In this document: in pieces, positions 1,616 through 1,901 of the stretch
Layout: every line of letters starts with the position of its first letter
Numbering within the stretch: the first letter of the stretch is position 1
DNA from: an uncultured bacterium
GTDB taxonomy: Bacteria; CALINM01
NCBI GenBank assembly: GCA_938045315.1
Contig: CALINM010000200.1
Location: forward strand, 1-14,198
DNA length: 14,198 nt
Direction of reading: 5' to 3'
Position numbers and translations under genes: made by a program
Notes under the pieces: generated by a model
Told to the model about the DNA's origin: nothing
Databases searched by the model: none
What the model saw: the letters and a program-made list of their open reading frames with translations, nothing else

Positions 1616-1694
1616 TGTCACTTAATTTGCACTTAATCATTGCACTTGGTTGTCACTTGGTGTCACTTGGTTGTCACTTGGTGTCACTTAATCA
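1616..1694. repeat. Seven TGTCACTT-like direct repeats at near-helical spacing
   Basis: Units begin at about 1616, 1628, 1641, 1651, 1661, 1672 and 1682. They read TGTCACTT or TGCACTT followed by AAT(CA) or GG(T). Start-to-start spacings are 12, 13, 10, 10, 11 and 10 bp, so the inner copies face the same side of the helix. Two adjacent copies of the 19-mer TTGTCACTTGGTGTCACTT (1650-1668 and 1671-1689) form a 21-bp higher-order repeat. The array starts two bases after the repressor stop codon. It is probably a multi-site binding region for the repressor or transposase. Confidence 0.8.
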
Positions 1695-1758
1695 GCTTTT
1701 TTAAAAATATGTCTAAAACCATTATTTATCAAGCCCTTAAACACTTTTTAAACACCTC

Positions 1759-1901
1759 ATAAAAATCCCAAACTAAGTGTTAAAATTGGCAATTTTTTGG
1801 TAAAACTGGCAAAAATTCTCAAACTACCAACTTCAGCAAAAACATAACAATATCAATCACTTAACCCCTCCTAACCCCTCCCCAAAAAATCTCAAACTAC
1901 C
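1759..1901. repeat. Three ~19-bp direct repeats, candidate transposase end-binding sites
   Basis: CAAAAATTCTCAAACTACC (1810-1828) and CAAAAAATCTCAAACTACC (1883-1901) match at 18 of 19 positions and are 73 bp apart, close to seven helical turns. A third, weaker copy (1759-1777, core AAAAATCCCAAACTA) matches 14 of 19 and is 51 bp further in. Mu-type phage ends carry several sites of about 22 bp for the transposase N-terminal domain, the outermost a few bases from the terminus. Size, number and position fit that role. The assignment to the transposase is inference. Confidence 0.65.
1862..1881. repeat. 10-bp tandem duplication TAACCCCTCC
   Basis: Two perfect head-to-tail copies of TAACCCCTCC (1862-1871 and 1872-1881), immediately inside the outermost candidate transposase site. 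It is G+C rich within otherwise AT-rich DNA. The function is unknown. Confidence 0.7.

Follow-up and report, generated by a model that had tools for sequence, protein, structure and literature searches.

A helically phased direct-repeat array at the left end of a Mu-like prophage, a candidate platform for the N-terminal domain of the transposase

The window (the whole stretch of DNA analysed, 14,198 nucleotides) is an entire contig, one of 244 in a metagenome-type assembly of 1.86 Mb, and its first 1.9 kb form the left end of a Mu-like prophage. On the minus strand lie gene A (1-954), whose C-terminal part is cut off by the contig end, and a gene for a Ner-like Cro/HTH protein of 77 aa (960-1193); A encodes a DDE transposase of the MuA family (PF09039, E = 8.9e-9) with the Mu transpososome, 4fcy, as its best Foldseek match. 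Gene c on the plus strand (1248-1613) encodes a CI-type HTH repressor of 121 aa with 59% identity to the repressor of the related IMG/VR contig L017 (7.6 kb). Transcription of c is divergent from that of ner-A, as in the left ends of Mu-like phages, and the gene order is the same in L017. The region between c and ner holds an early promoter-like sequence on the minus strand (TTGACA-18-TAAAAT, 1203-1232) and an operator-like sequence, CAAATGAGAATGTTTGTCAAGAG (1213-1235), and is conserved in L017, including CAAA...ATTTG and TTGACA. In the transposase gene, which is AT-rich, there is also a G+C-rich palindrome, CAGGGGCAGG...CCTGCCCCTG (715-785), and a similar one is found in L017 at 1540-1567.

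Beyond c, three copies of a 15-base motif, RGTTTGAGATTTTTTG, on the minus strand are predicted to be the end-type transposase sites L3 (1759-1773), L2 (1810-1824) and L1 (1883-1897), the number of sites seen in the left end of a Mu-like phage. L017 also has three predicted sites of this type (at 111, 194 and 245), and the distance between L2 and L3 is 51 bp in the window, in L017 and in a second contig of the same genome, C155. The left terminus of the phage (AGTTTTTCAGGTAGTTTGAG..., minus strand) occupies 1889-1910, and the terminal sequence TTTTTCAGGTARTTTG is common to the window and three further phage contigs (L101, L103 and L106). The right end and the remainder of the phage were not found in the contigs of the genome, and the window contig has the left end only. 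Two small perfect tandem duplications flank the phage end (TAACCCCTCC and ATGAGGCTT, at 1862-1881 and 1922-1940).

Between c and L3 there is an array of seven direct repeats of the unit TG(T)CACTT on the plus strand (1616-1689), five of which are exact copies of TGTCACTT. The units start at 1616, 1628, 1641, 1651, 1661, 1672 and 1682, and the second and third read TTGCACTT. A first-pass annotation made from the sequence had described a seven-copy array with spacings of 12, 13, 10, 10, 11 and 10 bp, beginning two bases past the repressor stop, and we confirm each of these statements: the c stop codon TAG is at 1611-1613, and the spacings hold with TG as the reference point. With the invariant CACTT (at 1619, 1630, 1643, 1654, 1664, 1675 and 1685) as the reference, they are 11, 13, 11, 10, 11 and 10 bp, so that the units follow one another head to tail at about one helical turn, the format known from arrays bound by BldC- and Xis-type proteins. 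The perfect repeat reported at a 21-bp period does have that period, but it is 26 bases long and not 19 (1643-1668 = 1664-1689, within 1643-1689). No 8-mer exceeded three copies per 80 bp in any of 500 shuffles that preserved the dinucleotides of the whole window, against the five exact copies of TGTCACTT, and five copies with one mismatch allowed were seen in none of 60 shuffles of 560-1920. The array is thus real. Neither the c-ner region nor the early promoter of the window contains the unit, and none was found in the 5' part of the window's own gene A. Because the three RGTTTGAGATTTTTTG copies are placed as L1-L3 should be, the array falls within the phage, with L3 on one side of it and c on the other. 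An element extending to the right of 1616, with the array as its terminus, was considered and rejected, since L1-L3, the C155 boundary and L017 put the end at about 1910.

A diverged second copy of this left end is present on C155 (C155:3117-3313; 1490-1690 in the extracted stretch L002), where window positions 1649-1828 recur at 90% identity between chromosomal genes, without c, ner or A. This solo left end has an array of four CACTT units spaced 11-12 bp apart, upstream of the same AT-rich stretch as in the window, followed by an L3 site and a fused L2/L1 of the RGTTTGAGATTTTTTG type. Since the similarity stops at window position 1910 (the boundary at 1910/1911), C155 looks like a relict left end, one with an apparent deletion of about 72 bp in the L2-L1 interval. 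The presence of this second copy in the same genome also rules out an error in assembling the window contig as the source of the array.

The first 60 residues of A are predicted to form a DNA-binding domain. In an AlphaFold2 model of the window A fragment (mean pLDDT 70), residues 1-60 form a winged helix, and residues 2-62, approximately the domain encoded by 769-954 on the minus strand, adopt in the model the MerR-like fold of the BldC/Xis type of direct-repeat binder. This part superimposed on DNA-bound BldC (6ama) with Z = 6.9 (2.3 Å over 54 residues) and on the Pukovnik Xis (4j2n), also with Z = 6.9, values that are modest alone, being in the range where common folds score too. Pfam HTH_17 agreed weakly with the assignment, and a PDB sequence search with the domain gave nothing usable. 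Residues 81-318 matched MuA in the structure comparison, with residues 166-237 corresponding to MuA Igamma (Z = 6.9, 2.2 Å over 64 residues, again a modest score by itself), and MuA Ialpha was not among the structural matches listed for the window protein. BldC binds direct repeats of varying number in head-to-tail fashion (PMC5859096) and forms extended filaments with one protomer per DNA turn (PMC11963761), while in Mu the Ialpha winged helix of MuA binds the enhancer and Ibeta/gamma bind the ends (PMC3362531).

L017 allowed the array to be compared in a close relative. An array occupies the same place there as in the window, but its unit is a different one, GGTTGCAACC, with copies in attL at 348, 369, 381, 402, 464, 485 and 505. 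The expectation that close relatives would carry the same array was therefore borne out for its position, which is kept in both C155 and L017, but not for the unit in L017. Protein identity between L017 and the window is 71% in the A core and 59% in c, but only ~25% in the N-terminal domain of A. Furthermore, GGTTGCAACC is repeated in the 5' coding part of L017 gene A (at 1584, 1605, 1617, 1637 and 1662) with the same 21-12-21/20 spacing as in the attL array.

Five further phages (L077, L104, L103, L106 and L101), found through MuB-like proteins together with the array pattern, carry an array of fixed spacing near the 5' end of the A coding sequence (first 250 bases). Its layout is an inverted unit, direct units ~21/22, 12 and 20/21 bp apart, and a last unit 73 bp further on that sits inside the code for the N-terminal domain. 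The unit is GGTTACAACC in L077 and L104, GGTGGCTACC in L103, GGTGCGAACC in L106 and GGTRRCAACC in L101. Within each phage the units are nearly uniform and fall in two reading frames, and they are almost absent from the rest of the contig; selection thus appears to act on the DNA. Among these five phages a change in the recognition helix of A goes with a change in the core letters of the array, and this in every copy. L077 and L106, for example, show 95% identity in the A core and 98% in B, yet the core of all five units differs between them and so do the recognition helices (QQATQKHIS and KERAIQKHC, respectively), whereas L077 and L104, despite a core identity of 65%, have both helix type and unit in common. 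L017 and L077 are likewise similar in unit and helix type, with 45% identity in the A domain, although their cores are only 30% identical. Among the phages compared, only that of the window pairs helix PRRTVFDWI with unit TGTCACTT, so that this type has one example. Because array and domain are adjacent in gene A, a single block exchange could move both; arrays without linkage to the domain are those in attL of the window and of L017, and no others. Variation among the relatives extends to Ner as well, but L017 and L077, read by eye, share the unit and not the Ner helix. Scanning for arrays of GGTTNNAACC returned, besides L017 and L077, repeats of other kinds or a match in a replication-type gene (L083), and these were set aside.

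We consider it probable that the array is a platform for the N-terminal winged helix of A and acts in the manner of the Mu enhancer (IAS). Several A protomers would load head to tail on the TGTCACTT units, one per helical turn, and the end-binding domains of this array-loaded A would then hold L1-L3 and the right end. Since A bound to the array would at the same time hold the ends, the array is proposed to promote transpososome assembly. The fold of the front domain, together with the BldC and MuA precedents, points to that domain as the likeliest reader and to transpososome assembly as the likeliest purpose. On this reading A would bind cooperatively, and for enhancement of transposition rather than for control of transcription. 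The first-pass annotation had suggested that a single protein loads on one face of the DNA and had named the repressor, the transposase or a host factor as candidates; the loading still appears a good reading, and the transposase is clearly the best of the three, with the other two disfavoured.

Readings in which A is not the binder fare poorly. Operators for the c repressor would be a natural thought, because the array begins two bases after c and the repressors of Mu-like phages bind repeated operators, but no unit is found between c and ner, where the repressor must act. That region is conserved in L017 whereas the array unit is not, which disfavours the repressor, and L101 and L103 have similar c recognition helices with different array units; we regard this reading as very improbable. 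Still less credible is binding by a nucleoid protein of the host. Phased arrays can load architectural proteins, but the unit is not constant among the phages and varies with the transposase domain, following the phage's own protein, and a DNA search of 98 sampled genomes with the left end matched only the phage in its own genome and one 22-base chance match. That the array is a tandem repeat produced by replication slippage, with no function, is as improbable as operators for c. The perfect 26-base repeat at 21 bp and the change in copy number from seven in the window to four in C155 are in keeping with slippage, as is the occurrence of arbitrary short-unit arrays in other viral contigs, where a scan for TGTCACTT arrays gave 34 stretches and the reversed control pattern 19. 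(With these numbers TGTCACTT is not a strikingly common viral signal, and no Mu-like transposase was seen beside the 34 stretches in the DNA fetched.) The spacing of 10-13 bp, however, has no fixed period, and both the array of an unrelated unit at the same place in L017 and the fixed-spacing arrays in two reading frames of the five relatives point to function.

Two further readings keep A as the binder and assign the array another role. Use of the array by the N-terminal domain for transcription control, as autoregulation or as a roadblock behind c, is unlikely, if the least unlikely of the alternatives. In the five relatives the array comes after the early promoter region and sits in the 5' part of the A coding sequence, and BldC and some Xis-like proteins are transcription regulators (PMC5859096, PMC11963761); in attL of the window and of L017, on the other hand, the array lies past the end of c with no phage gene downstream of it, and its distance from the early promoter region is ~0.4 kb in the window and 0.5-0.65 kb in L017. 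Improbable, too, is that the repeats are additional end-type sites (L4 and so on) for the end-binding domains of A. Sites of ~20 bp would not fit into a 10-11 bp period, and in L017 the end-binding core is nearly the same and L1-L3 are the same while the array unit is quite different, although the array does lie in attL beside L1-L3 and C155 has a unit, TTCACTTGAA, that we take to be Mu-like from its resemblance to the Mu end.

The proposed enhancer-like platform differs from the known systems in its arrangement. The Mu enhancer is situated between c and ner and overlaps the repressor operators. The array studied here lies outside c in attL in the window (1616-1689), or inside gene A in the relatives, and consists of one-turn direct repeats located away from the apparent c operators. 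It is nevertheless best read as working like the Mu enhancer while lacking that element's defining position. Replication origins of the lambda O type have iterons inside the initiator gene, and the relatives' arrays resemble these in lying within the gene of the proposed binder, beside its DNA-binding domain, but the protein here is a transposase and not an initiator, and the window array is outside the gene. The likeness to the Mu enhancer (IAS, O1-O2) is that of a cis element near the left end which would be the target of an N-terminal winged helix, other domains of the protein being on L1-L3 (PMC3362531). With the filaments of BldC, Xis and RdfS the system shares the domain fold (Z = 6.9, modest alone), the repeats at about one turn and their variable number (PMC5859096, PMC11963761), but here the domain belongs to a DDE transposase.

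More tentatively, and short of an even expectation, we propose that a group of Mu-like phages has a re-programmable enhancer, the unit of which can be rewritten in step with the recognition helix of the A front domain, sometimes inside the A reading frame, such that each transposase would serve its own genome only and related phages sharing a cell would not cross-activate. To our knowledge, Mu and its closest relatives are the only phages whose transposition enhancers are well known. If the proposal is correct, these phages offer transposases whose array codes differ naturally, a series from which to derive how BldC/Xis-like domains recognise their sites, a means of testing whether enhancer specificity keeps related transposable phages apart, and a case of a regulatory array encoded in the very protein that reads it.

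The earlier remark that an array on the outer side of the repressor is unusual was upheld by a survey of Mu and nine other named Mu-like phages, which had no array of comparable significance in the early region. Weak repeats were seen in StopSmel and in BalMu-1 (L087), where RYGTTTAAA recurs ahead of c in the left end, at intervals of 10-22 bp (205-267; 3 of 60 shuffles). In MT835795.1 (L086), TGTTAAAA-like repeats at 11-22 bp are located in gene A just past the HTH code (1458-1517; 1 of 60 shuffles). Arrays of TGTCACTTCG with inverted copies were also found in four contigs (L044, L048, L050 and L067) beside a large primase-polymerase-looking gene, and these are possibly replication origins.
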